Source: Mesorhizobium sp. AR10 (GTDB lineage: Bacteria; Pseudomonadota; Alphaproteobacteria; Rhizobiales; Rhizobiaceae). Taken from it: a DNA stretch of 64,000 nt. The stretch is taken from NCBI RefSeq assembly GCF_024746795.1, contig NZ_CP080524.1:5992001-6056000 (forward strand), written 5' to 3'. Every line of letters begins with the position of its first letter. The first letter of the stretch is position 1. A program made the translations under genes and the position numbers. The notes below the pieces were generated by a model that was not told the origin of the DNA, did not search any database, and was given only the letters and a program-made list of their open reading frames with translations. Shown here in pieces: positions 1,060-60,528 of the stretch.

Positions 1060-1084
1060 GGAACGGTCGGCGCCGACAGTCGTT
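1060..1084 (+). promoter_or_regulatory. EcfG-type promoter (GGAAC-N16-CGTT)
   Basis: GGAAC at 1060-1064 and CGTT at 1081-1084 with exactly 16 bases between. It ends 23 bases before the GTG of the XRE-type regulator. Confidence 0.7.
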
Positions 1085-1107
1085 TCCACCTTTGCAACGT
1101 TAACTCC

Positions 1108-1425
1108 GTGGAGAGGATCTTGCCCAGACTGACCCCCGAACAATCTCGTGCAGCAAGAGGACTGCTGGATTGGCCGCCGGCGAGGCTCGGTGCCAGAGCC
1201 AACCTGAGCGAAGGTACAATTCGTGATTTCGAAAAAGGAAGACGGACGCCTCCGCTAGCCAAGCTTGAAGCGCTCCGCGCAGCACTAGAGTCGGCTGGAG
1301 TCGTATTCATGTCAGATGGCGAAACGACAGAAGGAGGGCCAGGCGTGCGGCTGCAGCGTCATACCCCTGCTGTGGCGCATCTCAGCGAGGGCGAAGCCGG
1401 CATCATCGAAAATAGCGAGATGTAG
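1108..1425 (+). CDS. XRE-family helix-turn-helix regulator
   Basis: A 105-residue regulator of the short Rhizobiales type. LTPEQSRAARGLLDW opens the helix-turn-helix, followed by ANLSEGTIRDFEKGRRTP, where SEGTIRDFE is the recognition helix, and a C-terminal part (LEALRAALESAGVVF, then GGPGVRL) that is conserved in this group. GTG at 1108 is chosen because it directly precedes the conserved domain and follows an EcfG-type promoter at 1060-1084. Family members are small DNA-binding repressors with unknown targets. The region after GGPGVRL is longer than usual and may be a read-on tail. Confidence 0.8.
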   Translation: MERILPRLTPEQSRAARGLLDWPPARLGARANLSEGTIRDFEKGRRTPPLAKLEALRAALESAGVVFMSDGETTEGGPGVRLQRHTPAVAHLSEGEAGIIENSEM

Positions 1426-1527
1426 CCCGACTGTGCCTAAATCATCCCAATGCAATCCCCAATTGGTAGACTCCTACGATGCACCGGCAGCTAGTGCCTC
1501 CGCCGGGCCGCGGACTGGGAGGAAACG

Positions 1528-1725
1528 ATGTCTGTGCAAAAGGAAGACTATCGAGCGAACAGGGCCGACGACGCGATTGCTGCCAAGCATGGCGCGGATG
1601 GCGATCGGGCTGAGCTACTGGCAAGAAAAAAGATGTCCCTGTGGCTCAGAGATCGGCGATCCTTCAGATTGTCCTCACACCCGGCGGAAAGTTCGCCAGG
1701 ACCGAAAGCCAGACCGCGCGGTTAG
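1528..1725 (+). CDS. Hypothetical protein, 65 aa
   Basis: ATG at 1528 has a strong ribosome site (GGGAGGAAACG directly upstream), the main support. The product is hydrophilic and basic (MSVQKEDYRANRADDAIAAK at the start, Ser/Pro/Arg-rich at the end) with no recognised domain, signal or membrane span. The C-terminal third has weak coding character and could be out of its original frame. Treat as a possible small or broken gene. Confidence 0.35.
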   Translation: MSVQKEDYRANRADDAIAAKHGADGDRAELLARKKMSLWLRDRRSFRLSSHPAESSPGPKARPRG

Positions 1726-1759
1726 CGCGTCCGGCGCCAACACCACTTCCCCGGTGAGG

Positions 1760-1786
1760 GGAACGATTGTGTCGGGCCGGCGTTCC
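1760..1786. promoter_or_regulatory. Palindromic EcfG-type promoter readable on both strands
   Basis: On the + strand, GGAAC (1760-1764), 16 bases, CGTT (1781-1784). Because the bases are GGAACG...CGTTCC, the minus strand gives the same pattern: GGAAC 1786-1782, 16 bases, CGTT 1765-1762. The next plausible + genes start at 1961 and 2125; no clear minus-strand gene follows. Confidence 0.55.
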
Positions 1787-1960
1787 TCGACTGCTGCAGA
1801 CCGCGTCAACCGGGCGTGGCGGCACGGTGAACAGGATGGTTTTCCCGGTTTCATATCCTGGCCAAGCAGTGGCTTAGCGCCTATCCCGCCCGGTCCGCAG
1901 CATTTCAGCTATCATACCGTGGCCATAGACCGACGCCGCGACACGGCGCATAGTTCGCGG

Positions 1961-2140
1961 ATGTCGCTGCCTCAACGCACCGGTCTAGCGAACGACGATG
2001 GCAAACGTGAAGACCATCTGGCGGCGGCTATTGCTGCCCTTCACGCTGCCGTCAAAGGGCTGGATGCACCCGTTGAATTGCTGGCTAGCAAGATGGAAGC
2101 GCCTGCCGAGGGAGCGTCGCAGCGGTGGTCTACACGGTGA
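1961..2140 (+). CDS. Hypothetical protein, 59 aa
   Basis: ATG-started frame giving a hydrophilic helical peptide (EDHLAAAIAALHAAVKGLDA in the middle). It ends 16 bases inside the next gene (start 2125), an overlap seen in coupled small genes. No domain recognised and the ribosome site is poor. It lies downstream of the palindromic EcfG-type promoter at 1760-1786. Low confidence. Confidence 0.3.
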   Translation: MSLPQRTGLANDDGKREDHLAAAIAALHAAVKGLDAPVELLASKMEAPAEGASQRWSTR

Positions 2141-2310
2141 TTTGGTACGAGAAACAGGGCATCTTTGAAAAGGTGCCCTTCGGCGCGGAGAAAGCCGCGC
2201 GAGATCATGCCGTCGCGACTTTTCTCGCTCGCAAGGAGGTTGACGGCATCGTGGCCGTGGAAGTACGCAAAGACGACGGGACGGTTGTATTCAGCCTAGC
2301 AGGCCATTAG
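2125..2310 (+). CDS. Hypothetical protein, 61 aa
   Basis: GTG at 2125 follows a GAGGGAG ribosome site about ten bases upstream. The peptide alternates beta-like and helical stretches (VYTVIWYEKQGIFEKVPFG, AARDHAVATFLARKEVDGI, AVEVRKDDGTVVFSL), consistent with a compact alpha/beta domain. No family is recognised. It overlaps the preceding small frame and may be translated with it. Soluble, probably cytoplasmic. Confidence 0.55.
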   Translation: MVYTVIWYEKQGIFEKVPFGAEKAARDHAVATFLARKEVDGIVAVEVRKDDGTVVFSLAGH

Positions 2311-2452
2311 GCTCGGTGCTCTTTGCTGCTGCTGCTAGCGCTTCTTTTTGGGCGCTGCTGGAAGCCAAAATACGGGCTTCTCGCAGAAGCGATGACCAAT
2401 TGTTCCTAAGGAAGAACATTTAAGATCAGCGCACGGGCCGCCCCCCGGAGGA

Positions 2453-2494
2453 CGGCGCCATCATCGCGTTCCAGAAAACCCGCGCCTCTTGAGG
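2453..2494. repeat. Dispersed repeat, copy 1 (second copy at 6486-6528)
   Basis: About 38 bases, starting CGGCGCCATCATCGCGTT, nearly identical to 6486-6528. In the other copy the same bases form one arm of the hairpin that ends a candidate small RNA; here the second arm is missing and the repeat runs into the start of a decayed DUF768 gene. Confidence 0.6.
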
Positions 2495-2521
2495 CAGGAA
2501 GTCGGTGCAGCGCGTGCTCAT
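2480..2521 (-). pseudogene. DUF768 gene start, remnant
   Basis: Reading leftwards, ATG at 2521-2519 overlaps the stop of the DUF982 gene by ATGA and gives MSTRCTDFLPQ, the conserved start of DUF768 proteins (MSTRGTNFLHQW). After eleven codons the sequence passes into the dispersed repeat at 2453-2494 and similarity ends. The same arrangement, also broken, occurs at 21994-22089. Confidence 0.65.
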
Positions 2522-3006
2522 CGATCCCGCCCCTTCAATATTCTGGCCTCTCGCAGCAGAGATGCGCGATCGGTGCCGATCATATTGACTAGGTCACGAG
2601 CCTGCGCTTCGGTGATGCCCGTTTCCCGCGCGAGGAAACGCACGAGGAAATCCTCTTGCTCCTCTCTGTCCCCGCGGTCGCGTCGTTTTTCGTCGATGAC
2701 GTGGGCCGATTTGGGCTGCTCGGCCGATCGGGGCGATCGAGCGCCCTCCTGCACTGTAACAGCTTTGAAGTTCAAGCCAGCCTCTTTGGCAGCTGTCACA
2801 AAAGCACGGCGAGCATTCTCGACGTCCTCGGCTGTACTCAGGGGGCCTGTGCAAGCCTGGAGTGCCACCCGGTAGCTTGGTCCGTGCGATTCCGGCCATC
2901 GCTCCATCATGAATATGGCGGCCTCGGATACGCTGCTCAAAGTGCGAAATTCGCCCACCGTTTCCGTTTCAACGATGATTGGAACTGCGAAAAACGGGTC
3001 GTGCAT
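2518..3006 (-). CDS. DUF982 protein with C-terminal DUF3606-like module
   Basis: A 162-residue protein. Residues 1-85 are a DUF982 domain (VGEFRTLSSVSEAAIFMMERW, then YRVALQACTGP and VENARRAFVTAAKEAG); a charged linker follows; the last 40 residues (ARETGITEAQARDLVNMIGT) resemble DUF3606. The function of both is unknown. ATG at 3006 is chosen over the upstream in-frame start because AGGGG lies six bases before it. An EcfG-type promoter lies at 3057-3033. A paralogue with the same layout and promoter is at 22086-22574. It was once followed by a DUF768 gene overlapping by ATGA. Confidence 0.85.
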   Translation of the reverse strand: MHDPFFAVPIIVETETVGEFRTLSSVSEAAIFMMERWPESHGPSYRVALQACTGPLSTAEDVENARRAFVTAAKEAGLNFKAVTVQEGARSPRSAEQPKSAHVIDEKRRDRGDREEQEDFLVRFLARETGITEAQARDLVNMIGTDRASLLREARILKGRDR

Positions 3007-3032: not shown

Positions 3033-3057
3033 AACGGCGGAGCACTGTTTTCGTTCC
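3033..3057 (-). promoter_or_regulatory. EcfG-type promoter of DUF982 gene
   Basis: Reading leftwards, GGAAC 3057-3053, 16 bases, CGTT 3036-3033; 27 bases before the ATG at 3006. The paralogue at 22 kb has the same element in the same position. Confidence 0.8.
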
Positions 3058-6033: not shown

Positions 6034-6282
6034 CTTGGCCCATGCAGTAAAGCGCGACCGGCTCGACAAACTTCAAACGCATGAGCGGGCCCCACACACC
6101 TGCGAGCCAATTAGCATGGGCTGAAATGGTTCCCTAATTGAAAGCGCCCGCCCCCTGGACTAGAGGGCGGGCCGATCGGTGCCCCGACCTTGCAGCACAG
6201 TTGGGACCTATGCTGTTCGGTCTGAATACCCCAGAATTGTTAAGTTGAGGTGACGCATCTAATTGCGAACCGCCGGCATGGA
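6034..6282. other. Intergenic stretch with a GC-rich hairpin
   Basis: No convincing gene. At 6146-6172 the arms GCCCGCCC and GGGCGGGC form a hairpin; read leftwards it is followed by GCTTTC, so it resembles the hairpins ending the two candidate small RNAs just to the right. Short frames here have no ribosome site or domain. Confidence 0.4.
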
Positions 6283-6366
6283 AAGCCCGCGCCACTTTGC
6301 CGGTTAGCGCGGGCCGGCCGATGTTTCCACCAGCCTGCGACGGAGCCATTCAGGGCATCCGAAGCA
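6283..6366 (-). ncRNA. Candidate stress small RNA 2
   Basis: Leftward from an EcfG-type promoter (6398-6374), a transcript starting near 6366 would run about 55 bases into a stem of GCCCGCGC (6314-6307, read leftwards) with its partner (6292-6285) and then TTTCC, a terminator-like end. Promoter-to-hairpin distance (84 bases) matches the neighbouring candidate. A 71-codon frame starts at 6349 but has no ribosome site. Confidence 0.45.
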
Positions 6367-6373
6367 AGAAACA

Positions 6374-6398
6374 AACTATTCGAGCCCGCTAATGTTCC
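6374..6398 (-). promoter_or_regulatory. EcfG-type promoter of candidate small RNA 2
   Basis: Leftwards GGAAC 6398-6394, 16 bases, AGTT 6377-6374. No ordinary gene follows before the hairpin at 6314-6285. Confidence 0.6.
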
Positions 6399-6485: not shown

Positions 6486-6528
6486 CGGCGCCATCATCGC
6501 GTTGCAGAAAGCCCGCGCTCTTGCCGAG
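6486..6528. repeat. Dispersed repeat, copy 2 (first copy at 2453-2494)
   Basis: Shares CGGCGCCATCATCGCGTT and the following bases with 2453-2494. It overlaps the 3' hairpin of candidate small RNA 1. Confidence 0.6.
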
Positions 6529-6590
6529 AACGCGGGCCGATCGGTAACCCGATCTTCAACAGCCACCGGAGGGCGGTGTGTCTGTTGCGG
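6505..6590 (-). ncRNA. Candidate stress small RNA 1
   Basis: Leftward transcript predicted from the EcfG-type promoter at 6622-6598. It contains a small hairpin whose loop carries CCCTCC (ACCGCCCTCCGGTGG), an anti-ribosome-site motif common in alphaproteobacterial small RNAs, and ends in a stem of GCCCGCG (6537-6531) and CGCGGGC (6517-6511) followed by TTTCTG. No reading frame in it has a ribosome site. Confidence 0.5.
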
Positions 6591-6597
6591 ATGAGAG

Positions 6598-6622
6598 AAC
6601 ATTAGCCGCCGCTAAATGTTCC
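6598..6622 (-). promoter_or_regulatory. EcfG-type promoter of candidate small RNA 1
   Basis: Leftwards GGAAC 6622-6618, 16 bases, TGTT 6601-6598. The element lies inside an inverted repeat (GAACATT...AATGTTC). Confidence 0.65.
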
Positions 6623-7062: not shown

Positions 7063-7087
7063 GGAACCTCGTCAACCTCGCGGAGTT
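7063..7087 (+). promoter_or_regulatory. EcfG-type promoter
   Basis: GGAAC 7063-7067, 16 bases, AGTT 7084-7087; ends 21 bases before the ATG at 7109, with an AAGGAGAG ribosome site between. Confidence 0.7.
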
Positions 7088-7108: not shown

Positions 7109-7351
7109 ATGCCGCGTTACCAGATCGATGAAATGGACGGAGATGACTTGGCCGCTTCGCACGTCGCCAACGGAGAAACCGCGCTGCAAGCGCTTCACAA
7201 AATTACAGTTCGGCCGATTTCGCCGCGCGCACTGCAGCGACACTGGTTCAGAGTCGTCGACGAAAGCGAAGGGATCGTCTTCGAATATAGCTATGAGGAA
7301 AGCGCAGTGGAAATCCACCCGGGTGGGCCTTCATGGAACGCCACGCCGTGA
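7109..7351 (+). CDS. Hypothetical protein, 80 aa
   Basis: MPRYQIDEMDGDDLAASHVA starts a small alpha/beta protein with a HWFRVVDESEGIVFEYSY core. ATG at 7109 is chosen for its AAGGAGAG ribosome site; the longer frame upstream overlaps the promoter. It ends 19 bases inside the following DUF982 gene, indicating coupled translation. The N-terminal MPRYxI and the VVD..G..FEY pattern are common in small rhizobial proteins of unknown function. Expected to be induced with the general stress regulon through the promoter at 7063-7087. Confidence 0.7.
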   Translation: MPRYQIDEMDGDDLAASHVANGETALQALHKITVRPISPRALQRHWFRVVDESEGIVFEYSYEESAVEIHPGGPSWNATP

Positions 7352-9516: not shown

Positions 9517-10110
9517 TTACGAGCTTTCGGCCCGCACTGTCTCCACCGACAGCGAGCCGGCCGAAAGCGGCCGCAAAAGCTCTGCCTCAGGCCTCGTCAG
9601 ATTGATCCAAGCGGACCAATTCTCAGGTCTAAGGATTACGACCTGTCGATTGTGATATGGCGCGACATCCGGCCCGGGATCGGTCGTCAGCATGGTGAAA
9701 GTCGGCGGCTTGTTGCCGACCGCTTCACGCCAAAGCCCTGCGATAGCCATGAACGGGGAGCCGTTGAGCGTGAAGCGATGTTTCGCCTTGGGGTATTTCG
9801 CGCCAGTGAATTCGAAGAATGCGGACGCCGGAATGAGGCATCGCTTGCTATTTCCGAATTGCCGGCCTTCCGAGCGGAAGTTAAACACAGGCCCGCCTTT
9901 TGGTCCTACCGGCGGGAAGCCGAACGTCATCGAAGCCAGTTCGAACGCGTCGCCGTCGGCGCGCACTATCGGCGCCGGATCATTGATTCGGATGTCATCC
10001 GCCTGTGGCAGGTCAAGTTCGATCTGCTGGATCGGAATCTTGAGCGCGAGCGACGCCATCATCCGGCATTATTCAGCCCAAATTACATGCTGCTCGTAGT
10101 CGTTGCACAT
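9517..10110 (-). pseudogene. SRAP domain (SOS response-associated peptidase, YedK/HMCES type), nonsense at codon 14
   Basis: SRAP proteins use the cysteine after the initiator methionine to form a thiazolidine crosslink with abasic sites in single-stranded DNA. ATG at 10110 gives MCNDYEQHVIWAE, then TAA at 10071-10069 where relatives have Tyr. The rest follows in frame: RINDPAPIVRADGDAFELAS, FNFRSEGRQF, RCLIPASAFFEFTG with the conserved Glu, and HNRQVVIL with the conserved His. A downstream ATG (10062) could start a protein, but it would lack Cys2 and so the catalytic nucleophile. Probably inactive, or a miscalled base. Confidence 0.8.
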
Positions 10111-10409
10111 GGAAGACTCCGCACCGGGCATCTTGCCATAAAGTTCGACCCATAAAGTTCGACGCGACGCTTAGGTTCCAGCTTAAGCCGGTTTGCTAAC
10201 CGCGCTTTCGTCAAGTTCCGTCTCCAGTTGATCGCTGACAGGCCTCGCCTTGCCGCCGCCAAAGGCTCGCCATCAAAGCCCTGCTGCCAGGCGTCGCCGT
10301 ATTCGTCCCAGAACGGCGGCACGACTCGCTCCTTGCCGTGCTTGCGAGCCTGCGCAACATACATCCACGCATAGGACAGGCGCTCTTGGTCCTTCTTTGC
10401 CACGGCCAT
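10083..10409 (-). CDS. Hypothetical protein, about 108 aa
   Basis: From ATG 10409: MAVAKKDQERLSYAWMYVAQ, ARKHGKERVVPPFWDEYGDA, WQQGFDGEPLAAARRG, a hydrophilic domain with several conserved-looking aromatic residues. It ends 28 bases inside the SRAP gene, so the two are probably co-transcribed. The leftward arm of the palindromic EcfG-type promoter at 10576-10552 lies about 140 bases upstream. Function unknown. Confidence 0.5.
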   Translation of the reverse strand: MAVAKKDQERLSYAWMYVAQARKHGKERVVPPFWDEYGDAWQQGFDGEPLAAARRGLSAINWRRNLTKARLANRLKLEPKRRVELYGSNFMARCPVRSLPCATTTSSM

Positions 10410-10549: not shown

Positions 10550-10576
10550 GGAACAAACCGGGCAGGCGTCCGTTCC
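10550..10576. promoter_or_regulatory. Back-to-back EcfG-type promoter of ku
   Basis: Rightwards: GGAAC 10550-10554, 16 bases, CGTT 10571-10574, 27 bases before the ku ATG. Leftwards: GGAAC 10576-10572, 16 bases, TGTT 10555-10552, facing the 10409 gene. Confidence 0.8.
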
Positions 10577-12382: not shown

Positions 12383-12407
12383 AAGGCATCCTTCATTTGG
12401 GAGAAAA

Positions 12408-12436
12408 GCCCGCGCCCCTGTCGCAAAGGCGTGGGC
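12408..12436 (-). other. GC-rich leader hairpin
   Basis: Arms GCCCACGC (12436-12429 leftwards) and GCGCGGGC (12415-12408) around CTTTGCGACAGG. It lies 88 bases after the GGAAC of the promoter and 26 bases before the start codon: possible attenuator or end of a short transcript. Confidence 0.5.
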
Positions 12437-49765: not shown

Positions 49766-49863
49766 TCCTCTTCAGGTAGGACAATGACGTCCTGGGCGAC
49801 GGCCGCGCCTACCCCCATCAGAACGAGCAAGCTGGCGGCTGCAGTTGCAAGGTGCATTCTCAT
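49759..49863 (-). pseudogene. DUF1236 protein, N-terminal remnant
   Basis: ATG 49863: signal peptide MRMHLATAAASLLVLMGVGA, then [12 protein letters not shown], matching the start of the intact DUF1236 gene at 15661-15960; the rest is replaced by the recombinase remnant. A perfect EcfG-type promoter survives upstream at 49940-49916. Confidence 0.8.
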
Positions 49864-49915: not shown

Positions 49916-49940
49916 AACGGCGAGAAAACCCTCTTGTTCC
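49916..49940 (-). promoter_or_regulatory. EcfG-type promoter of DUF1236 remnant
   Basis: Leftwards GGAAC 49940-49936, 16 bases, CGTT 49919-49916; 52 bases before ATG 49863. Confidence 0.75.
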
Positions 49941-50530: not shown

Positions 50531-51865
50531 CTATTGGGCCGCCGGAACAACCCGCCAAATCTTGTTCCCCACATCATCCGCGATCAGCAACGCGCCCGAT
50601 CGGTCAATGGCGACGCCTACCGGACGGCCGAACGCCTTGTCGTCGGTGCTCAGAAACCCGGTGAGCATGTCTTGCGGCGGTCCTGACGGCTTGCCGCTGG
50701 CAAACGGCACGAAGATCACCTTGTAGCCGCTTCGCGGCATGCGGTTCCATGAACCGTGCTGGCCAATGAAGGCGCCGTTCTTCATTTCCTGCCCAAAGAG
50801 GTCGCCGGTGTTGAAGGCGAGGCCAAGCGATGCAGTGTGCGGCCCAAGCGCGTAGTCGGGCACAATCGCCTTCCCGACGAGGTCCGGACGCGGGGGCTGC
50901 GGTCTAACATCTACGTGTTGGCCAAAATAGCTATAGGGCCAGCCGTAGAAGGCGCCATCCTTGACTGATGTCATGTAGTCGGGAACGAGATCGCTACTGA
51001 TCTCGTCTCGCTCGTTGACAACCACCCAGAGATTCCCGCTCTCCGGGTTCCAGGAGAGACCGTTCGGATTGCGCAGGCCCGACGCAATTAGCCGCATCTG
51101 CCGCGTCGCGAGGTCGATCTCGTGCACGGCGGCGCGACCCTCTTCCTCCTCCATGCCGTTCTCGCCGACGTTGGAGTTGGAGCCCACTGTGGCGTAGAGT
51201 TTCGCGCCATCCTGGCTGGCGACGACGTCCTTGGTCCAGTGGTGGTTGCGGCCGGCCGGAAGGTCGACGATCTTCTCGGCCGGGGTGGTGATTTCAGTGG
51301 CGCCATCCCGATAGGGGAAGGCGACGATCGCGTCGGCATTGGCGACATAGAGCTTGCCGTCCAGCAGCGTCATGCCGAAGGGCGAAAAAAGGCCGGTTAG
51401 GAAGGCCTTTCTGGTCTCGGCAACGCCGTCGCCGTCCCGGTCGCGTAACAACGAGATGCGGTTGGCGCTCCGCACCTCGGCGCCGGCCTGGCTCTGGAAC
51501 AGGCCCATGAACCAGCCTCGAATGGAGAACCCTTTGTCAGGCTTGGGGGGAGCGTTGCTTTCGGCGACCAGCACGTCGCCATTGGGCAGCACGTGCAGCC
51601 AGCGCGGATGGTCGAGGCCACCGGCGAATTCGTTGACGGCGAAGCCTTGGGCAGCGGTCGGCATCGTGCCTTGGGGCCAAGGGGTCGCCTCAGCAACATG
51701 GACCGTGGGTATCCAGGTCGGATTGGGTTCGGCGAGCGTCGGGTTTGGACCGTAGGTCTGCTCGATCGGAACGGTGGCCTGTTCGCGCGAGAAGAAGAAC
51801 ACGCCCGCCCCCGCGATTGCGACGATGGCGACAAGGACGAGCAAAACGCCCAGAATTTTTCGCAT
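50531..51865 (-). CDS. PQQ-dependent sugar dehydrogenase-like (sorbosone dehydrogenase family)
   Basis: 444 residues. N-terminal membrane anchor or signal ([20 protein letters not shown]), then a six-bladed propeller: [117 protein letters not shown]. The [14 protein letters not shown] and QHGSWNR blocks define the PQQ-binding glucose/sorbosone dehydrogenase group. Periplasmic; electrons could pass to the cytochrome c next in the operon. Last gene of a six-gene unit. ATG 51865. Confidence 0.88.
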
Positions 51866-51905
51866 AGGATGTTCCCGCAGAGAGTGTGAGAATGATCTAA
51901 CGCAA

Positions 51906-52988
51906 TCAGGGCATTGCGGTTGCGGCGGCACGCGGCATTTGCGCGAAATAGGCTGCCAGTGCGGCAATATCCTCGTCCGAGAGGTTTTCAGCAGCGTTGC
52001 GCATCAGATGGGCGAAGCGCGTGCCGCCGCGCTTTTCCTCGCGGAAGAGCTCGAGCTGGGTCGCAATGTATTCGGCGGGCTGTCCTGACAGTTCCGGATA
52101 GATGGGGTTGCGGTCCGGGCGGCCGTGGCAACCCAGGCATGCCGGAACGTCGCGCTCCGGGATGCCGCGCCGCGCGATCTCATCGGCGCGCGCGATCCGA
52201 GCGCGGTCCGATTGCGTCGACGTTGCAGGCGCAGGCAGCGCGGAAAAATGCCGCGCGAGATCGGCGAGGAGTGCAGGGTCGACAGCGGTGGCAGGAATTC
52301 CCATGACGCCGCTCTGGCGGTGGCCGGCAGCGTAGGCCCTTAAGCTTTCAAGAAGGTAGGTTTCGCGCTGGGAGGCCAAGACAGGCGTCGCCGGGCTGCG
52401 GCCGAGCCCGTCCTCGCCGTGGCAGCGCGCACATTCGGCGAGTGCACGTTCCAGATCCAGCGCCTGGCCTGTCGTCGGTTCACTTCTGCCATAGGCAAGA
52501 TCCTGCCACCGCGCCGCGTCCATTGCCGGCAGTTCGCGCAGGAAGGCAACCATCGCCCAGACCTCATCGTCGCGCTGTTGCGTCGGCCAGGCCGGCATGC
52601 CGGTGAAGCGCACGCCGTGCTTGACGATGCGGAAGAGCTGGGCGTCCGTCCATTCGCCGACCTTGCCGGCAAGGTCCGGCGGCTGAGGCAGCATCAGATG
52701 TACAGCGGGCGAGCGCGGTTCGCCGGGCGCGCCATGGCAGATGGCGCAGCCGCGCGCGAAATGGCCGGCGGCAGGCTGGATTGCGTAGCGCGGCAGCTCG
52801 TCCGGCACCTCGACTGTGAGTGCGTATGTTCGCACGGCGGAGCGCATGGCGAAGTGCAGGAACCATTCGGTGACCTTCCAGTGGCCGGTCGAGGCGCCAA
52901 CGTTGAAGAAGCCTATCCAGGTCGCGAAAAGCACTGCGACCGGCAAGATCGCCAGGCCTATCGCAAGGTGCTTCCAGTTGACGTGCAT
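51906..52988 (-). CDS. Three-heme cytochrome c, membrane-anchored
   Basis: 360 residues. N-terminal anchor ([20 protein letters not shown]), then three CxxCH heme sites: [22 protein letters not shown] and [16 protein letters not shown], each with later Met ligands (FTGMPAW, GVMGIPA). The layout matches triheme gluconate/alcohol dehydrogenase-type cytochrome subunits. Probably relays electrons from the sugar dehydrogenase to the oxidase. ATG 52988 shares one base with the ctaG stop (TGATG). Confidence 0.88.
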
Positions 52989-53608
52989 CAGCCGGCCACC
53001 CTCTCGGTTTTGCCGCCCAGGAGCCTGGCAAGCAGGAATACGCCTCCGGCAAGGTAAACGGCTGCGCCGATCATCAACATGATGACGCCGCCGAGTGCCT
53101 GGTCCTGTCCGGCGCCGAGCACGAGACCGAAGCAAGTCACATCGCCGAGGCGATAGAGCGGCCGTGGGGCGAGCGAGAGCAACGCGCCAAGCAATGTCAT
53201 GTGGACGGAGGTCAGGAGCAGCGCGAAGGCGCCGGCAGCGTCGCGGGCAAGCGCATGGGAATCGCGAGCTGCGATGCACGTCAGCCAGAGGAATAACCCC
53301 GCGCCAAGGAAGGATGTCTGCTCGAGTATGGTGGCGATGGTCGATGTCTCGGCCCACTGGCGCGCGGCCGGCGCATGCCAGCCCCAGACGACAATCAGTT
53401 CGACGAGGGACGCGAGAAGGGGAGCGGCGGTGGCCACGGAGCGTATCGTCTTGGAAATACCGATTGCGATCAGCGGCGCCGCGATGGCGACGACGCCCAT
53501 GTGGGCAAGCATGTGGGCAGCGAAGGAGCCGCTCCACGCTTCGAGCAGCGGTCCTACCCAGATCAGCGCGAGCGTGACGAGGCCGAGCAACAGACTTGCC
53601 ATCCTCAT
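52988..53608 (-). CDS. ctaG: Cytochrome c oxidase assembly protein, caa3 CtaG type
   Basis: 206 residues, about six membrane helices: MASLLLGLVTLALIWVGPLL, AAHMLAHMGVVAIAAPLIAI, LVELIVVWGWHAPAARQWAE, with FAAHMLAHM and WGWHAP as the family's His motifs for copper. Inserts copper in caa3-type oxidases (unlike Cox11, also called CtaG). ATG 53608 overlaps the upstream stop by ATGA; an ATG at 53617 is also possible. Confidence 0.82.
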   Translation of the reverse strand: MRMASLLLGLVTLALIWVGPLLEAWSGSFAAHMLAHMGVVAIAAPLIAIGISKTIRSVATAAPLLASLVELIVVWGWHAPAARQWAETSTIATILEQTSFLGAGLFLWLTCIAARDSHALARDAAGAFALLLTSVHMTLLGALLSLAPRPLYRLGDVTCFGLVLGAGQDQALGGVIMLMIGAAVYLAGGVFLLARLLGGKTERVAG

Positions 53609-53979
53609 GATGCGCATCCGCCGATGAAGAGCAACGGCAGCGCCACATAAAGCACGGCGACGAAGCTCAGGCCGGAAAGCAGAAGCGTGGCAAACCCCTG
53701 GAAGAGCGTGCGGTCCTTCGCGGTTGGATCGTCGTGCGGCGGGTCGTGCGTGCCGAAACCCCACTGCCGCCAGGCGAGCCAGCCGGATAACACGATCATG
53801 GCGAGCGCCGCGAGGGTCGCGGCCGCGATGCCAGCCTGGACGATACCGAAGCCGAGGTCACCGCGCTTGGCGCACCAGATGGCGGCCAGGGCGTAGCAGA
53901 CGAGGAAATGTCCGGCCCAGACCGCTGGCGCAGTGAAGAGCGTCCAGAGCGTTTCGACTTCTTTGGGAATGATGCGCAT
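53605..53979 (-). CDS. Small oxidase-associated membrane protein
   Basis: 124 residues with three membrane helices (APAVWAGHFLVCYALAAIWC, AGIAAATLAALAMIVLSGWL, GFATLLLSGLSFVAVLYVAL) and a conserved start (RIIPKEVETLWTLFTAPAVW). Found beside caa3-type oxidase genes in rhizobia; may be a subunit IV-like or assembly protein. ATG 53979 (a GTG precedes it). Stop overlaps ctaG. Confidence 0.7.
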   Translation of the reverse strand: MRIIPKEVETLWTLFTAPAVWAGHFLVCYALAAIWCAKRGDLGFGIVQAGIAAATLAALAMIVLSGWLAWRQWGFGTHDPPHDDPTAKDRTLFQGFATLLLSGLSFVAVLYVALPLLFIGGCAS

Positions 53980-53986
53980 CACCGTC

Positions 53987-56518
53987 TCACATCGCTTCCG
54001 GGAAAAGACCGATGACGGCGAAGGTGATAACAGCGGTGATCGCCATGAAATGCCAGTAGAGCGCGACGTTGTGCAGTTCCATGTCGTGCTCCCGCGTCAA
54101 GCGACCGGCGAAGCTGCGCGCGAGGCAATAGAGCTGCATGACGGCTCCGACTGCGGCATGAGCAAGTGCCCAGATGACTAGAATCCAGACGATCGCCGGA
54201 TAGACATGCGCGGTCGGTTGCATGTCATGCTGCCAGGGCCCGGCAAAGCCGGCAGCAGAGGCAGCGAGCGTGAGCAGAAACGCGGCAACAAGCGCAACGC
54301 GTGCGCCGTTAGTCCACCCGCTTGCGTTCAGTCGGCGCGCCCCAAGCATCACAACCCACGTGGCGACGAAGAGCGCCAGCGCGATCATCGGCCACCGCAA
54401 ACCGGGGCCCGGCTGCCCCAGAGTAAAGTCGGGATGGATGGTCCAGTAGAAGAAATAGCCGAAGATGAGGCTGGCGAAGGCGGTGCCGTCACCAACCATC
54501 GTAATGAACATCGCCCACCAGCCTACCGAGTCCGGGCCTGAGGCATAGAGCGGCAGGCGCAGCCCGAGGCCGACATCCTTGGTTTTCTGCTCCGGGATGT
54601 CGCCGGTGCCGGTCCAGAGCCACCAGAGAATGGCAACGAGCGTGCCGATGCCCGACAGTAGGGCGAGGATCCAGAGTTCGAAGGTGAGAGCGACGAAGAC
54701 GCCGCCGAGCAACGCGGCCGAGATTATTGTGATCGTGGTTGGTGCCGCCACGCGTTGGCACTGCAGCGGATGGGCGTCGAGCACCGAAGTGATCAGTGTC
54801 TCGCGGCGATTCTCCTTGGCGCCAGGCAGATAATAGGCGCCCTCGTTGACCTTGCGCGTCAGATCGTTCTGGTCCCAAAGCGGATAGCGGCTCTCGATGA
54901 CGGGGATGGAGCGAATGCCCCAGTTCTCCTCGGGCTCGTTCAGCCATTCGAGCGTGCCCGCGTTCCACGGGTTCTGCTCGCCGCGCGGTTGACGATGCTT
55001 GGGCCGAACAACGTCGAAAGCGACTACCAGCACCCCTGATGCGAAAACAAAAGCGCCGATCGTTGATACGAGGTTCAGCCAATCCCAGCCAATCCCCTCG
55101 GGGTAGGTGAAGACGCGGCGTGGCATCCCGCGCAGGCCGCTGAGATGCATTGGGAAGAAGGCGACGTTGAAGCCGGAAAACATCAGCCAGAAGGCGACGC
55201 GGCCGAGCGGCATGGACAGCATGCGTGCATCGATGAGCGGGTAGTAGTAATAGACGCCGGCAATCAGCGGAAAGAGCATCCCGCCGATCAGCACGTAGTG
55301 CAGATGCGCAACGACAAAATAGGTGTCGTGCGCCTGCCAGTCGAAGGGGGCGAGCGCGACCATCACGCCGGTCAGGCCGCCGAGTACGAAGATGGCAATC
55401 CCACCAGCGCCAAAGAGCATCGGCACAGAGAAGATGACGCGTCCGGCGAGCATGGTGGCGATGAAGACGAAGATCTGCACACCGGTCGGGATCGCGACGG
55501 CCTCCGAGGCGGCCGAGAAGAAGGCCAGCGAGATTTGCGGCAGGCCGGTAGCGAACATGTGATGAACCCATAGGCCAAAGGACAAGAAACCGGTGCCGAC
55601 GGCCGCGAGAACGATCCAGGAATAGCCGACGATCGGACGTTGCGAAAAGGTCGGCACGATCATCGCCATCAGCGCGATGGCGGGCAGGAAGATGATGTAG
55701 ACCTCCGGGTGCCCGAATATCCAGAACAGGTGCTGCCAGAGCAGCGGGTCGCCGCCGCGCGTCTGATCGAAGAACGGCCAGTCGAACATACGCTGCATCT
55801 CGAACAGGATGTCGCCCGCAATTAGCGGCGGGAAGGCGAACAGGATCATGCCTGCGGTGATCAGCAGATACCAGGCGAAGAGCGGCATCAGGTTGATGCG
55901 CATGCCGGGCGCGCGGCACTTCATGATGCCAACGATGAGTTCGACGGCGGCGGCGATCGAGGCGACCTCAATAAAGGAGAGACCGAGAAGCCAGATGTCG
56001 GCACCGATGCCGGAATATTCCTTGTCGGTGGCGAGAGGCGGATACATGAACCAGCCTGAGGACGGAGCCGCGTCGAAGAAGATCGAGCCGCAGACGAAGA
56101 CACCGCCGATGAGAAAGCTCCAGAAGCCGAAGGCCCCGAGCCGCGGGAATGGCAGCTCGCGCGCTCCGAGCATCGGCGGCAGCAGAAAAATCGCGACGGC
56201 CTCGAAGATGGGCACGGCAAACAGGAACATCATCACGGTGCCGTGCAGCGTAAAGGCCTGGTTATAGAAATCGGCCGAGAGGAAGTCGTTTTCCGGCACG
56301 GCGAGCTGCGTGCGTACAAGAAGCGCCAGCACGCCGGCGAACAGCATGAAGGCGAAGGCCGCGCCGCCATACCAGAGGCCAACCTGCGTGTTGTTGACCG
56401 AAGTCCAGTAGCGCCAGCCGGTCGGCGTCTCCCAGACGCGGCGCAGCTGTTCCTCCTCGGCCTTCATTATGGCTGGCGAGGGCTTTCGCTTGACGCGGGC
56501 TTTGACGACTGTGGTCAT
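53987..56518 (-). CDS. ctaD: Cytochrome c oxidase, fused subunits I and III
   Basis: 843 residues. Subunit I (about 1-560): AFTLHGTVMMFLFAVPIFEA (low-spin heme His), WIFGHPEVYIIFLPAIALMA (CuB His and cross-linked Tyr), VHHMFATGLP (CuB His pair), AHDTYFVVAHLHYVLIGGML (heme His pair). After a linker, a subunit III-like part (640-843): WWAMFITMVGDGTAFASLIF, and FAGRLTREHDMELHNVALYW, HFMAITAVITFAVIGLF. Reduces oxygen to water and pumps protons. The I+III fusion is typical of caa3/SoxM-like alternative oxidases. Overlaps ctaC by ATGA. Confidence 0.95.
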   Translation of the reverse strand: MTTVVKARVKRKPSPAIMKAEEEQLRRVWETPTGWRYWTSVNNTQVGLWYGGAAFAFMLFAGVLALLVRTQLAVPENDFLSADFYNQAFTLHGTVMMFLFAVPIFEAVAIFLLPPMLGARELPFPRLGAFGFWSFLIGGVFVCGSIFFDAAPSSGWFMYPPLATDKEYSGIGADIWLLGLSFIEVASIAAAVELIVGIMKCRAPGMRINLMPLFAWYLLITAGMILFAFPPLIAGDILFEMQRMFDWPFFDQTRGGDPLLWQHLFWIFGHPEVYIIFLPAIALMAMIVPTFSQRPIVGYSWIVLAAVGTGFLSFGLWVHHMFATGLPQISLAFFSAASEAVAIPTGVQIFVFIATMLAGRVIFSVPMLFGAGGIAIFVLGGLTGVMVALAPFDWQAHDTYFVVAHLHYVLIGGMLFPLIAGVYYYYPLIDARMLSMPLGRVAFWLMFSGFNVAFFPMHLSGLRGMPRRVFTYPEGIGWDWLNLVSTIGAFVFASGVLVVAFDVVRPKHRQPRGEQNPWNAGTLEWLNEPEENWGIRSIPVIESRYPLWDQNDLTRKVNEGAYYLPGAKENRRETLITSVLDAHPLQCQRVAAPTTITIISAALLGGVFVALTFELWILALLSGIGTLVAILWWLWTGTGDIPEQKTKDVGLGLRLPLYASGPDSVGWWAMFITMVGDGTAFASLIFGYFFYWTIHPDFTLGQPGPGLRWPMIALALFVATWVVMLGARRLNASGWTNGARVALVAAFLLTLAASAAGFAGPWQHDMQPTAHVYPAIVWILVIWALAHAAVGAVMQLYCLARSFAGRLTREHDMELHNVALYWHFMAITAVITFAVIGLFPEAM

Positions 56519-57543
56519 TCGAGCCTCTTCAGCCAGGCGGCGATCTCGGCGATGTCCTGTTGGGGCAGCATGCTGAACTCGGGCATCTTCGATCCGGGCT
56601 TGATCAAGTGCGGATGGGCGATGAAGCTCCGGAGTGCCTCCTCGTCAGCAGGCAAAATGCCGGCACCGATCGTTTCCCGCGAGCCCACATGCGAGAGATC
56701 CGGCCCGACACTGCCCTCAGCTTTCGTGCCCGCCACGCGGTGGCAAGCACCGCAGCCGTTGCGAAGGAAGAAGTCGCGTCCCGGCAAGGATGCGCCGGCC
56801 GACGGTTTCGAGCGCGTAGCTAGCCATTCCCGGAAGGCACCGCGTTCCATGGCGACGGCGGTGAAGGCCATCAGCGCGTGCGAGGTGCCGCAATATTCCG
56901 CGCAGGGGCCGCGGTAGGTGCCAGGCTTCGTCGCCAGCAACGACAGCCGGTTCTCGCGCCCTGGGATCATGTCCATCTTGCCACCGAGCGCGGGAATCCA
57001 GAAGGAGTGGATGACGTCGGTGCTCTTCAGCAGGAACTCGACGCGCTCACCAACAGGCAGCCTGATCTCGTTAGCGGAGAGAACAGGAGCGCTGCCGTCT
57101 GCCAGGCGGTAGGCGACCCTCCACCAGAATTGCTCCCCAGTGACCTCGATCCTGAGACCGGTTTCGCCGGCTCGTGCGAAAGGTCTCAGTCCTGGCATCA
57201 GCCAAAGGGCATAGCCGAGCAACAGAAAGAGGAGCAGCGAAGGAATGACAGCGCCGCCCCAGAAAATCAACCGGCCTGCAATATGCTCGCCTATGGCAGC
57301 GCGCCCATGGCCCGTCGCGTAGACGAGAAGGCCGACGACTATCAGCCAAATAAAACCGCCAGCAATGACCATGTGCCAGAAAAGTTGAGCGACCTGGCGC
57401 GCTTCCTCCCCGGCCGGATCGAGCGCCGACTGGACGCCCGAGCAGCTGGAACAGGCGCCCAAGCATAGCCACACCGGGAGCAAGCGCACCGCAGCGCGTT
57501 TCGTAATCTGGGCGCTTGTGCCTGGAACCGTTGGCGAACCCAT
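56515..57543 (-). CDS. ctaC: Cytochrome c oxidase subunit II with C-terminal cytochrome c (caa3 type)
   Basis: 342 residues. Lipoprotein signal KRAAVRLLPVWLCLGAC (lipobox LGAC), two helices (LFWHMVIAGGFIWLIVVGLL and LIFWGGAVIPSLLLFLLLGY), a cupredoxin domain with the binuclear CuA site (TDVIHSFWIPALGGKMDMIP, YRGPCAEYCGTSHALMAF), and a fused cytochrome c (GCGACHRVAGTKAEGSVGPD, SKMPEFSML with the Met ligand). The fusion lets soluble cytochrome be bypassed. ATG 57543 starts the signal. First gene of the oxidase operon; no EcfG-type element upstream. Confidence 0.95.
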   Translation of the reverse strand: MGSPTVPGTSAQITKRAAVRLLPVWLCLGACSSCSGVQSALDPAGEEARQVAQLFWHMVIAGGFIWLIVVGLLVYATGHGRAAIGEHIAGRLIFWGGAVIPSLLLFLLLGYALWLMPGLRPFARAGETGLRIEVTGEQFWWRVAYRLADGSAPVLSANEIRLPVGERVEFLLKSTDVIHSFWIPALGGKMDMIPGRENRLSLLATKPGTYRGPCAEYCGTSHALMAFTAVAMERGAFREWLATRSKPSAGASLPGRDFFLRNGCGACHRVAGTKAEGSVGPDLSHVGSRETIGAGILPADEEALRSFIAHPHLIKPGSKMPEFSMLPQQDIAEIAAWLKRLE

Positions 57544-58506: not shown

Positions 58507-58803
58507 TCAGTTGTTTGCCGAGCCCGCACCGTTTTTCTTGACGCTGCTACAAAATTCCGGATGGGCGTTTGCCGCCTCCTCGTCGCAACTCTTCGTCATG
58601 GCTGTCCGATCTTCATCGGTCAACGCCTTCCATGCCTTTATGAACTCGTCTTCGGAGCGTAGCGACTTCATGGTGGAGTCCGTATAGAACGGCTGCATCT
58701 TTGCAGGGTCATCCAGAGCGGACGTGCCGGTTTCGCCAGCGGCAAGAGCAGCGCCGCCGAGCAAAGAAAGCGCCAAGGCGCCAAAAACAACCATCTTGGT
58801 CAT
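58507..58803 (-). CDS. Small exported protein, 98 aa
   Basis: Signal peptide MTKMVVFGALALSLLGGAAL (cleavage at ALA/AGE), then a helical mature part (MKSLRSEDEFIKAWKALTDE, DRTAMTKSCDEEAANAHPEF, CSSVKK) with two Cys that may form a disulfide. GAGGAAGGG precedes the ATG 58803. EcfG-type promoter at 58882-58858. Periplasmic, function unknown. Confidence 0.75.
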   Translation of the reverse strand: MTKMVVFGALALSLLGGAALAAGETGTSALDDPAKMQPFYTDSTMKSLRSEDEFIKAWKALTDEDRTAMTKSCDEEAANAHPEFCSSVKKNGAGSANN

Positions 58804-58805
58804 TG

Positions 58806-59117
58806 CTAGGAACCCTTCCTCTTTTTGCTGATCGTTACCTCAACGATCTGTTTGGCAAACGGCGGGTTTTGGGAAAAGTTCCCGGCTGTCATGGCCGAAA
58901 ACCCAATGGTCTTGGAACACTGGGGCTCGTCAGCGATAAGCCGGTCCGAAATCTTTGCCGCGACCTTCGGAGAACAGCGCTGCGCTACAGCAACCTCCGC
59001 CCGTAGCTTTGCCTGCTCATCCTTCACGAAGAGTTCGCAGACTGAGGAAGGTTCGTAATCGGCCAACCCTCTAAGGGACGTGAGGCGAATGGCGCTTGTC
59101 CTCGGTAGGGTCGGCAT
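58806..59117 (-). CDS. Hypothetical protein, 103 aa
   Basis: ATG 59117 follows the DUF427 stop with no gap. CELFVKDEQAKLRAEVAVAQ, RCSPKVAAKISDRLIADEPQ, CSKTIGFSAMTAGNFSQNPP, FAKQIVEVTISKKRKG looks like a genuine soluble protein, but the last 25 codons overlap the EcfG-type promoter of the next gene and no ribosome site is clear. Function unknown. Confidence 0.45.
   Translation of the reverse strand: MPTLPRTSAIRLTSLRGLADYEPSSVCELFVKDEQAKLRAEVAVAQRCSPKVAAKISDRLIADEPQCSKTIGFSAMTAGNFSQNPPFAKQIVEVTISKKRKGS
58858..58882 (-). promoter_or_regulatory. EcfG-type promoter of exported protein gene
   Basis: Leftwards GGAAC 58882-58878, 16 bases, CGTT 58861-58858; 54 bases before ATG 58803. Confidence 0.7.
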
Positions 59118-59480
59118 CTATCCGCGCTTTGTCGGGATCGAAAGCACCGTGTGGCGAGCGATGGCTAGTGCGGGGCTCTCGGGCGTCTCGTAGGCCCACA
59201 TGAAATTGTCAGCCGATCCGCCGACCGCGTGAACGCGCCAATAACTCGCGGTGCCCTTCGACGAGCTGCTCGTCGCCGTGTTGGTCTTCTCCAGCAGATC
59301 AAAATAAATGTCGTCGAAAGGCACATAGAAGACTGGGTCGCGTCCGTCCTCATGAAGCACTTTAGCCCGCTCGGTTGAGGCAATGATCGCGTCGGAAAAC
59401 CTGACCGTCACAGTTCCATCAAACGGCGTTATCAGAAGCGCGCCGGAACGGCCGGCGGCATTTTCGGCTGAGGCTTGCAT
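59118..59480 (-). CDS. DUF427 family protein
   Basis: 120 residues with the DUF427 pattern: ITPFDGTVTVRFSDAIIAST, ERAKVLHEDGRDPVFYVPFD, DIYFDLLEKTNTATSSSSKG, TASYWRVHAVGGSADNFMWA, YETPESPALAIARHTVLSIP. Small beta-rich (beta-tent) fold of unknown activity, common in actinobacteria and rhizobia. ATG 59480. A perfect EcfG-type promoter lies at 59540-59516. Confidence 0.85.
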   Translation of the reverse strand: MQASAENAAGRSGALLITPFDGTVTVRFSDAIIASTERAKVLHEDGRDPVFYVPFDDIYFDLLEKTNTATSSSSKGTASYWRVHAVGGSADNFMWAYETPESPALAIARHTVLSIPTKRG

Positions 59481-59515
59481 TGGACTTCTCCTCTAGGCTG
59501 GCCCCTGTCTCTCGA

Positions 59516-59540
59516 AACGTTGTGTAGTCATCAGGGTTCC
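59516..59540 (-). promoter_or_regulatory. EcfG-type promoter of DUF427 gene
   Basis: Leftwards GGAAC 59540-59536, 16 bases, CGTT 59519-59516; 35 bases before ATG 59480. Confidence 0.8.
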
Positions 59541-59684
59541 AGCTTCGAGATCACTTAGGCGCTTTAGGCTTTCCTCCGAGTCGTCCGTATCGAGTTCGCG
59601 GCGGATTGGCGTCGGAATAGCTTCTGGTCAGCGCACCGGCCGATGACACCGAGCGCCTCCGGCATATAAAGTTGGCTTCGCCTA

Positions 59685-59849
59685 TCATTTGTTCTTCAGA
59701 ACCCGAGCTTCCCTTAGGATTGACGCTCGGTCCGTGCCGACCAATGCAATTATCTCTCGAATCTGCTGCTCTGTGACGCCGCATTCGCGCGCCAGCGCAC
59801 GTAGGCTTTGCGGGGTCAGCACAGGGCGCCTCGTTTCCTCCTCGGTCAT
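59685..59849 (-). CDS. Stand-alone DUF3606-like mini-protein, 54 aa
   Basis: ATG 59849, preceded by GGGAG: MTEEETRRPVLTPQSLRALA, RECGVTEQQIREIIALVGTD, RASILREARVLKNK. It matches the C-terminal module of the two DUF982 proteins here (ARETGITEAQARELIDMIGT, DR, LxREARILK) almost position for position, so the module exists both fused and free. Three helices, function unknown. Too short for most gene finders. Confidence 0.75.
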   Translation of the reverse strand: MTEEETRRPVLTPQSLRALARECGVTEQQIREIIALVGTDRASILREARVLKNK

Positions 59850-60048
59850 CGCAAACTCCCTTCTGAAGCGATAAGGTCTCGCGAGCTGCGAGATGCCTTT
59901 GAGCGGTTCCTTTTTTCTGCACTGCCGCCATCACTGCGTGTTTGGACGGGCCAAAAAGCGGCTCCCAACCGGGCCGGCTTTCTTCCGGATAGTCTCGTAG
60001 CGACTGGAGCGAAGCGCGGGCGTTGCGAGGCTAATGATCCGACGACAC

Positions 60049-60384
60049 TTATGGAACTGCCGGCTGTGCTGGCTGGGTTCCCGGCCGATCCCCGCCCGTG
60101 CTCGATTGCGTTGGGTTCTTGTCGACCTGAGGGTTCGTGCCGACTGGCTCGACGTTTATGTTGTCGGTTTTCGATTTAACCGGATCGTTTTCCGCGGGAT
60201 TCAGGCCGGAGGGAACCGTGGAACTACCGCTCTCCTCCGTGGCTGGCGTCTTCGATTGCTCGCCGTACAACTCAGCAATACCCCAAGCGATTGCGGTCAG
60301 GAGCAGTGCAGCTATCAGGATCGCAAAACCGTGGAAGCCCCATCCGCCCTGTCGGGCTTTCTTTTCAGGAATGGTCTTTGTCAT
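60049..60384 (-). CDS. Membrane-anchored Ser/Thr/Pro-rich protein, 111 aa (intact copy)
   Basis: MTKTIPEKKARQGGWGFHGF, then helix AILIAALLLTAIAWGIAELY and a long polar outside tail (GEQSKTPATEESGSSTVPSG, NINVEPVGTNPQVDKNPTQS) likely disordered. GGAGG seven bases before ATG 60384. Intact duplicate of 12055-12382. The leader carries a GC-rich hairpin (60438-60410) after an EcfG-type promoter (60528-60504). Function unknown. Confidence 0.75.
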   Translation of the reverse strand: MTKTIPEKKARQGGWGFHGFAILIAALLLTAIAWGIAELYGEQSKTPATEESGSSTVPSGLNPAENDPVKSKTDNINVEPVGTNPQVDKNPTQSSTGGDRPGTQPAQPAVP

Positions 60385-60409
60385 AAGGCATCCTCCATTT
60401 GGGAGAACA

Positions 60410-60438
60410 GCCCGCGCCCCTGTCGCAAAGGCGCGGGC
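60410..60438 (-). other. GC-rich leader hairpin
   Basis: Arms GCCCGCGC (60438-60431 leftwards) and GCGCGGGC (60417-60410). It lies 90 bases after the promoter GGAAC and 26 before the ATG. Same shape as 12408-12436, 6285-6314 and 6511-6537. Confidence 0.55.
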
Positions 60439-60503
60439 CGACCACGACTTGAGGGAAGCCTGGTCAGCAGCCGGAACCGATGAGAACCTGCTGCGTCCGA
60501 CTC

Positions 60504-60528
60504 AACAAGCCGTGGCAATCGAAGTTCC
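60504..60528 (-). promoter_or_regulatory. EcfG-type promoter of the copy-B gene
   Basis: Leftwards GGAAC 60528-60524, 16 bases, TGTT 60507-60504. Confidence 0.7.

Follow-up and report, generated by a model that had tools for sequence, protein, structure and literature searches.

We analysed a 64-kb stretch of the two-contig, 6.88-Mb genome of the soil bacterium Mesorhizobium sp. AR10, a relative of legume symbionts (C2:5992001-6056000, hereafter the window; positions are counted from its first base) in which promoter motifs of the type used by the general stress sigma factor EcfG are concentrated. The window lies within what is probably an 80-kb island at a tRNA-His gene whose cargo is wired to the host's EcfG. 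Sequence comparison gives good support to two parts of this reading, namely that the motifs are EcfG promoters and that the cluster is the cargo of a genomic island integrated into the tRNA gene at its 3' end; the regulation, the mobility and a repressing role of small RNAs (sRNAs) we infer.

Motif density and the host EcfG circuit

The motif was scored as exact GGAAC-N17-GTT (equivalent to GGAAC, N16, xGTT) on both strands. Thirty exact sites were found in the window and 231 genome-wide, where 2.15 are expected per 64 kb from the genome rate (binomial P ~8e-25). The density, well above that of the rest of the genome, is 14-fold the genome average, which bears out the dense cluster claimed in an earlier interpretation of these bases alone (the sequence-only reading). 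Since the same pattern written backwards occurs 308 times genome-wide, against 231 forward, the motif is at or below background outside the window. Two motifs lie in the 200 kb to the left and two in the 72 kb that remain on the right before the contig ends, and one other dense cluster (C2:1667622-1676836, 10 sites) was seen among the places listed, which reach to ~3.12 Mb of C2. When spacers from 10 to 25 were scanned in the window, N17 gave 30 sites and any other spacer 1-6. Dinucleotide shuffles yielded 3.84 +/- 2.12 sites for spacers 16 and 17 together, compared with 33 observed, and the backwards pattern occurs six times in the window, above its own shuffles (mean 2.03; six reached by 2 of 100). 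CGTT stands as the -10 in 13 of the 30 exact sites. Moreover, none of the 30 falls inside a gene of the stricter gene set, which omits some small genes, compared with 57% of random positions; with a looser set, two sites (19314+ and 46455-, each site being named by its lower coordinate and strand) fall inside a called open reading frame (ORF).

All 30 sites listed in the sequence-only reading were confirmed, 29 of them as exact GGAAC-N17-GTT and the one listed there as 19222- (its upper coordinate) as that described with a longer spacer (GGAAC-N18-GTT); one exact site, 30114+, was missing from that list. Its statement that nearly all sites lie 20-60 bases before a start was too strong. With starts read by hand, this was true of 15 of the 30, and seven more lie at 64-158 bases; others precede sRNA-like sequences or have no target. 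A same-strand start was assigned downstream of 22 sites and an sRNA-like sequence follows five (1760+, 6374-, 6598-, 12500- and 60504-), with 60504- doing both.

The regulators expected to act on such a motif are encoded in the same genome. Around the sole NepR match (C2:1670765-1670869) lie EcfG, a pair of HWE histidine kinases, and PhyR, which has a receiver and two PhyR sigma-like domains. This regulator locus is the 10-site cluster mentioned above, and motifs face both ways between phyR and nepR-ecfG. In the accessible text on Rhizobium etli, the EcfG1 motif is GGAAC-N16-CGTT (PMC3892343), with which the window motif agrees in spacer and -10. The sequence-only reading had named the motif the consensus of EcfG, released by PhyR from NepR, and with these regulators and the same motif in one genome that name is supported.

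Borders, cargo and promoter targets of the island

The island spans 80 kb in window coordinates -1671 to 78305, with both ends outside the window. A 21-bp direct repeat, identical at 21 of 21 bases, lies at -1671 and 78285, the latter copy being the 3' end of the tRNA-His gene; in 336 kb of genome surveyed it occurs twice, and it occurs once at the corresponding junction of a relative, G027 (relatives are given by genome number). In that genome the left flank, whose end is at -1651, is followed directly by the tRNA-His gene (78285), that is, an empty site. The left flank was compared with six relatives, among which G027 alone shows the empty site. The same flanks enclose ~4 kb in G011 and ~23 kb in G003, and in G009, G048 and G004 the right flank was not found within the 40 kb compared. 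Motif counts in these 40-kb stretches were 0 in G009, 2 in G003, 1 each in G048, G011 and G004, and 3 in G027. A relaxase gene of the right flank, encoding 1015 amino acids (aa), was dropped as a synteny marker, since a genome can have as many as six copies; the left flank was used to locate the site instead.

Beside the tRNA, 243 bases from the repeat, lies an integrase-like ORF of 415 aa, and a MobA/MobL relaxase and AlpA lie further inside. G+C content is 0.57-0.59 across the first 48 kb, compared with 0.58-0.64 in the 200 kb to the left; it rises to 0.64 at 52-56 kb. Mesorhizobium symbiosis islands insert at tRNA 3' ends with direct repeats, an integrase and a relaxase. The present island shares this type of insertion but has stress cargo under EcfG-type promoters and, unlike symbiosis islands, showed no type IV secretion (mating-pair, conjugation) genes among those of its ORFs that were scanned, which were not every ORF. 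A transposase pair with rve and HTH_Tnp_1 domains (25941-27070) and a short resolvase ORF (49290-49652) also lie inside it.

About 70 window ORFs were scanned with Pfam. Repair genes comprise Ku, LigD and a second ATP-dependent ligase, and regulators comprise an HWE kinase and Crp. Further matches were to DUF892, DUF4142, YflT, CsbD, DUF72, DUF1236, DUF768, L,D-transpeptidase, Hsp20 and Usp, and three families are multicopy: DUF982 (six), DUF6766 (two) and DUF6894 (two). A PLD protein is close to cardiolipin synthase, below the cut-off of that model. Many cargo genes, such as LigD, are not preceded by an exact motif. The sequence-only reading had called the region a stress-regulon island collecting small genes of unknown function. 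The 14-fold density and the position of all 30 sites between the repeats uphold the first part; the second was too narrow, given Ku, the sensor kinase, Crp, the cardiolipin-synthase-like protein and the five sites before sRNA-like sequences. The predicted features are as follows, with distances in nucleotides (nt) from motif to start.

1060-1084, +: EcfG-type promoter; HTH_3 ORF 1108-1425 starts 23 nt downstream
1760-1786, both strands: palindromic EcfG-type pair 1760+/1762-; Atu_At1 sRNA on the + side, no target found on the - side
1794-1896, +: Atu_At1 sRNA (RF02496), 79.8 bits; gap of 9 nt from motif to match
3033-3057, -: EcfG-type promoter; DUF982 gene 2518-3006, 26 nt (28 nt in two relatives)
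6281-6372, -: new-family sRNA, 80.3 bits with model R1 (one of the ten sequences that built it); intrinsic terminator
6374-6398, -: EcfG-type promoter, predicted to drive sRNA copy 6281-6372
6507-6595, -: new-family sRNA, diverged copy, 26.9 bits; not in R1
6598-6622, -: EcfG-type promoter, predicted to drive sRNA copy 6507-6595
7063-7087, +: EcfG-type promoter; 80-aa ORF 7109-7351, 21 nt
10550-10576, both strands: palindromic EcfG-type pair; Ku on the + side; ORF 10083-10409 on the - side, 142 nt (alternative upstream GTG start possible at +19)
10602-11432, +: Ku (non-homologous end joining), starting 27 nt past the motif
12404-12498, -: sRNA-like sequence, near-duplicate of the 60.4-kb copy; weak with R1 (18.3 bits, E 0.004)
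12500-12524, -: EcfG-type promoter; degenerate sRNA copy 12404-12498
13500-13524, -: EcfG-type promoter; 83-aa ORF 13216-13467, 32 nt (35 in G031)
13773-13797, +: EcfG-type promoter; PLD/cardiolipin-synthase-like gene 13926-15257, 128 nt (108 in G049)
16019-16043, -: EcfG-type promoter; DUF1236 gene 15661-15954, 64 nt (47, 64 and 64 in relatives)
16124-16148, +: EcfG-type motif; no convincing target; 30-aa ORF with Shine-Dalgarno sequence at +28
19314-19338, +: EcfG-type promoter; 67-aa ORF 19412-19615, 73 nt
22602-22626, -: EcfG-type promoter; DUF982 gene 22086-22574, 27 nt
23368-23392, -: EcfG-type promoter; 62-aa ORF 23151-23339, 28 nt
23968-23992, +: EcfG-type promoter; Crp/Fnr-family regulator 24151-24870, 158 nt to the called start
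27916-27940, +: EcfG-type promoter; DUF892 gene 27995-28504, 54 nt (54 in G049)
30114-30138, +: EcfG-type promoter; glycosyltransferase-like gene 30225-31397, 86 nt
34855-36633, -: HWE histidine kinase with three PAS stretches
36663-36687, -: EcfG-type promoter; HWE histidine kinase, 29 nt (24-41 in four relatives)
36723-36747, +: EcfG-type promoter; 67-aa ORF 36774-36977, 26 nt
43865-43889, -: EcfG-type promoter; CsbD gene 43611-43826, 38 nt (39 in G049)
44364-44388, -: EcfG-type motif; no target found
46455-46479, -: EcfG-type motif; short ORF behind it, start ambiguous
47379-47403, -: EcfG-type promoter; 257-aa gene 46577-47350, 28 nt
49916-49940, -: EcfG-type promoter; 45-aa ORF 49726-49863 with signal-peptide-like start, 52 nt
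58858-58882, -: EcfG-type promoter; 98-aa gene 58507-58803, 54 nt (58 in G049)
59516-59540, -: EcfG-type promoter; DUF427 gene 59118-59480, 35 nt
60406-60510, -: sRNA or leader, diverged new-family copy, 29.8 bits; not in R1
60504-60528, -: EcfG-type promoter; sRNA copy 60406-60510, possibly also 111-aa gene 60049-60384, 119 nt

The island has other features as well. A six-gene operon of cytochrome oxidase type (50531-57543, minus strand; sorbosone dehydrogenase-like, cytochrome c, CtaG, unknown, COX1, COX2) has no exact EcfG motif in front, and neither has a pair of HisKA_2 histidine kinase and response regulator at 66530-68106 (locus L042:2530-4106). A ROSE thermometer (RF00435, 59.4 bits) lies at 62588-62677 on the minus strand, before the Hsp20 gene 62118-62594. 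A P15 match at 8067 (E 0.023, 30.5 bits versus 70) was taken as chance.

Promoter conservation in relatives and two small RNA families

Among relatives the island-type Ku (at least 71% identity) is distinct from a second Ku (~40-48%), which is present in most of the 61 genomes searched. An exact motif lies within 300 bases of 27 of the 30 island-type Ku loci returned, the window's own copy included, and 25 of these motifs lie at -49 to -64; the spacers mostly differ and a few are identical. The second Ku gene of AR10 itself (C2:1052609-1053421, minus strand) has an exact EcfG-type motif ~33 bases upstream, at C2:1053455-1053479. For other genes, tblastn matches in up to six relatives were compared for motif distance. 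The distance is nearly kept for DUF982, the 83-aa ORF, PLD, DUF1236, DUF892, CsbD, the 98-aa gene and the kinase in one to four of the six (for the kinase, 29 here and 39, 41, 33 and 24 in relatives). In this comparison no motif was found for the kinase in G031 and G049 or for CsbD in G056, and many other pairs of gene and relative gave no tblastn match or no motif.

Gene order is not the same between relatives. We counted motifs and backwards controls around Ku, sRNA or kinase in stretches of 20-83.5 kb. Dense stretches were found in G049 C20 (32 motifs/8 controls, 83.5 kb), G060 (29/5, 80 kb), G031 (29/4 and 21/8, 80 kb) and G003 (18/4, 40 kb), and further stretches gave 18/6 (G049 C13), 11/1 (G022), 9/1 (G002) and 5/1 (G001). 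From these counts, dense clusters recur but are not universal.

At 10550-10576 and 1760-1786 the sequence is a perfect inverted repeat, GGAAC-N17-GTTCC, so that one and the same stretch could drive transcription in either direction. Palindromic double promoters were considered as a special class and rejected, because their frequency (2 of 28 distinct window sites by hand count, 7 of 191 in the relatives' stretches) is no more than base composition would give. The palindromic form does stand out at Ku (8 of 27 Ku motifs in the genus) and at the three Mesorhizobium Atu_At1 promoters that were looked at; since these sequences are related, we make no claim from them.

One of the predicted promoters precedes a copy of Atu_At1 whose score, 79.8 bits, is above the covariance-model gathering cut-off of 60. 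Of 199 genomes of the family, 65 have RF02496, in 58 of them above cut-off, and the matches total 85. We examined 71 of these, the 14 left out being mostly further copies and weak matches, and 62 of the 71 loci have an EcfG/RpoE2-type promoter. Specifically, 31 have GGAAC-N17-GTT, six N18-GTT, 25 GGAAC-N18/19-TT (which we take to be the RpoE2 form), one GGAAC only and eight none; background is 0.18% for the N17-GTT form and 0.35% for the loosest one. We admitted the looser form once 30 loci had been seen; of the 40 loci added later, 32 have one of the three forms. Agrobacterium fabrum C58, Sinorhizobium fredii and a Rhizobium have the GGAAC-N18/19-TT form, and two Mesorhizobium plasmids have the exact form. 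Atu_At1 lies directly before ligD in A. fabrum C58 and between an HWE kinase and CsbD in Mesorhizobium AR07. A literature search on Atu_At1 turned up no link to EcfG, and a search of titles and beginnings of abstracts, with subscription papers mostly outside it, returned no paper about an island of stress-regulon genes and none that brings Atu_At1 together with EcfG.

The second family came from a repeated unit. Four sites of the genome, two in the window and two far from it, have in common a promoter that begins with GGAACRTTAGCGG (with one extra base at 6622), a body of ~95 bases and then a GGCCCGCG...CGCGGGC terminator. A blastn search of 61 genomes, for which the query included the promoter, returned the query and nine other matches, of which one (L060) was judged chance; seven of the nine real loci, query included, have the exact motif. 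Model R1 was built from ten bodies without promoters. With a threshold of E 0.001 it has matches in 82 of 146 genomes in the genus, many of them weak and with rough E-values. Of 30 R1 loci returned, all at or above 47 bits and some of them model members, 27 have the exact motif, one has a spacer of 16 and two (L229, L230) have none; background is 1.1%. Among named records, seven exact matches were found, all in Mesorhizobium, and six have the motif upstream (not L277); some of these loci are already counted above. At E 1, Rfam gave no match for the new sRNAs (window and six related loci), and a plasmid search did not find the family. UCCCUC was seen by eye in 26 of the 30 loci, the window copy 6281-6372 being without it, and in most members a CU-rich loop sits in the terminator hairpin. 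An alignment of 16 members selected for diversity shows pairing in 96% of its cells; changes on both sides occur at 8 of 23 pairs, compared with 5.1 in shuffles, and double-changed cells number 27 versus 11.4.

In the window, R1 copies lie at sites 6374, 6598, 60504 and 12500. The last of these is weak (E 0.004), an antisense match in L051 being as strong (E 0.006), and was accepted because it is like the 60.4-kb copy. The stretches 12404-12524 and 60384-60528 are near-duplicate units of promoter, sRNA and gene, with the 111-aa frame intact only at 60 kb. By eye, new-sRNA matches lie within ~60 kb of an island-type Ku in nine genomes (G000, G001, G002, G003, G022, G031, G048, G049 and G060) and in many others do not. 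A guanidine-I riboswitch (L053:1181-1297, minus strand, 75.9 bits) lies near the sRNA copy at C2:2124841.

The sRNAs of related systems offer a comparison. Anti-Shine-Dalgarno sRNAs of alphaproteobacteria include alpha-r14/NfeR1 and CcsR. AbcR is another, according to the accessible text of a review (PMC7143759). Like these, the new family has three hairpins and CU-rich motifs; it differs in having no Rfam match and in carrying the CU-rich loop in the terminator hairpin. The accessible text on R. etli reports that the start of ReC64 was mapped by 5' rapid amplification of cDNA ends and that reporter expression was abolished in an ecfG1 mutant (PMC3892343). For Sinorhizobium meliloti, the corresponding text gives 23 sRNAs with predicted RpoE2-type motifs, eight of them intergenic with rpoE2-dependent signal (PMC3616915). 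These two regulons thus resemble the island in promoter type and in including sRNAs; in the portions accessible, they are not described as concentrated in a single island, and neither Atu_At1 nor the new family is named. SmelB126 of S. meliloti pSymB (L282, pSymB 1325476-1325586), also with RpoE2-dependent signal in that source (PMC3616915), is listed with RpoE2 in a review table, where the figure 4 is taken as copy number (PMC7143759). Upstream of it we found an exact GGAAC-N17-GTT beginning GGAACATT, and like the new family it has a CU-rich stretch. SmelB126 does not match R1 at E 1 or any Rfam family at E 1, and on the latter ground was rejected as a member of Atu_At1.

Alternative readings and biological meaning

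A GGAAC -35 is common to many extracytoplasmic function (ECF) sigma factors, and the motifs might be promoters of another such factor with the same -35. The E. coli RpoE box, for instance, is GGAACTT in the accessible text of PMC8103513, and the genome has nine further ECF-like matches; only the spacer, the -10 and the ecfG locus of this genome tie the motifs to EcfG. All three nevertheless speak for EcfG. Spacer and -10 fit the published EcfG1 motif, and ten copies of the motif surround nepR-ecfG/phyR. Moreover, the closest other ECF protein is 37% identical to EcfG and none of the nine exceeds this, and the scan of island proteins showed no sigma factor, NepR or PhyR, with a LuxR-type regulator giving region-4-like matches only. 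We consider promoters of another ECF factor unlikely. To about the same low degree we credit an ordinary chromosomal concentration of stress genes, with integrase, relaxase and repeats as unrelated debris. In its favour, the last 17.7 kb of the island carry no motif, the G003 cluster has a G+C content of 0.62-0.64, the dense stretches of relatives show no match to this integrase or relaxase, and in the five relatives other than G027 homology extends up to ~200 bases past the left repeat. What speaks against debris is that the identical 21-bp repeats, one of them at the tRNA 3' end, mark the two points at which collinearity with G027 breaks, and that G027 has the joined site. That most sites are chance matches, favoured by gene duplication and base composition, is very improbable: some did arise by duplication (12500 and 60504; the DUF982 genes at 2518 and 22086), but the shuffle, spacer and genome-wide controls contradict chance, none lies inside a stricter-set gene, and the motifs are kept across relatives with mostly unlike spacers.

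Besides the shared -35, the narrow basis of the assignment and the homology past the left repeat, several observations weigh against a mobile island under EcfG. No convincing target was found for four of the 30 sites (1762-, 16124+, 44364- and 46455-). The integrase-like ORF matches Phage_integrase at E 5e-4 and 20.3 bits, below the Pfam cut-off of 27.1. The HWE kinase has a motif upstream in six of ten full-length orthologous loci, and three kinase-bearing relatives have few motifs around the kinase (motif/control 11/6 in G039, 9/8 in G033 and 6/0 in G004). Since these three are poor in motifs and the relatives' clusters lack a match to the integrase and relaxase, the term mobile is supported for this copy only. 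In the fold of the new sRNA family, further pair types were no higher than in shuffles (21 versus 21.6), and a first alignment of ten members had no double-sided change.

In the reading that we prefer, an island under the host's EcfG, host kinases would phosphorylate PhyR under stress, perhaps together with the island's own HWE and HisKA_2 kinases. PhyR would bind NepR and EcfG would be released to transcribe the island's Ku, small stress proteins, kinase, Crp-family regulator and set of sRNAs. The sRNAs with a CU-rich loop may add repression, through base pairing at ribosome-binding sites. The island would be a horizontally moved add-on to the host stress regulon, and because its promoters fit the host's EcfG it would function as soon as it arrives, with no need to bring a regulator. 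A broader proposal, to which we give slightly better than even chances, is that a large accessory part of the stress regulon of Mesorhizobium resides in movable, reshuffled islands with EcfG promoters, no regulator and an sRNA arm of two families, one a multicopy Mesorhizobium family absent from Rfam, the other Atu_At1, which would be under EcfG/RpoE2 control throughout Rhizobiaceae.

The two sRNA families would gain a likely regulator. The accessible text of the R. etli paper leaves open whether non-coding RNAs belong to the general stress regulon in other alphaproteobacteria (PMC3892343), a question that would therefore become directly testable. If the reading is true, the general stress response would grow through horizontally acquired modules already wired to a conserved sigma factor, comparable to the symbiosis or resistance islands that add other traits.

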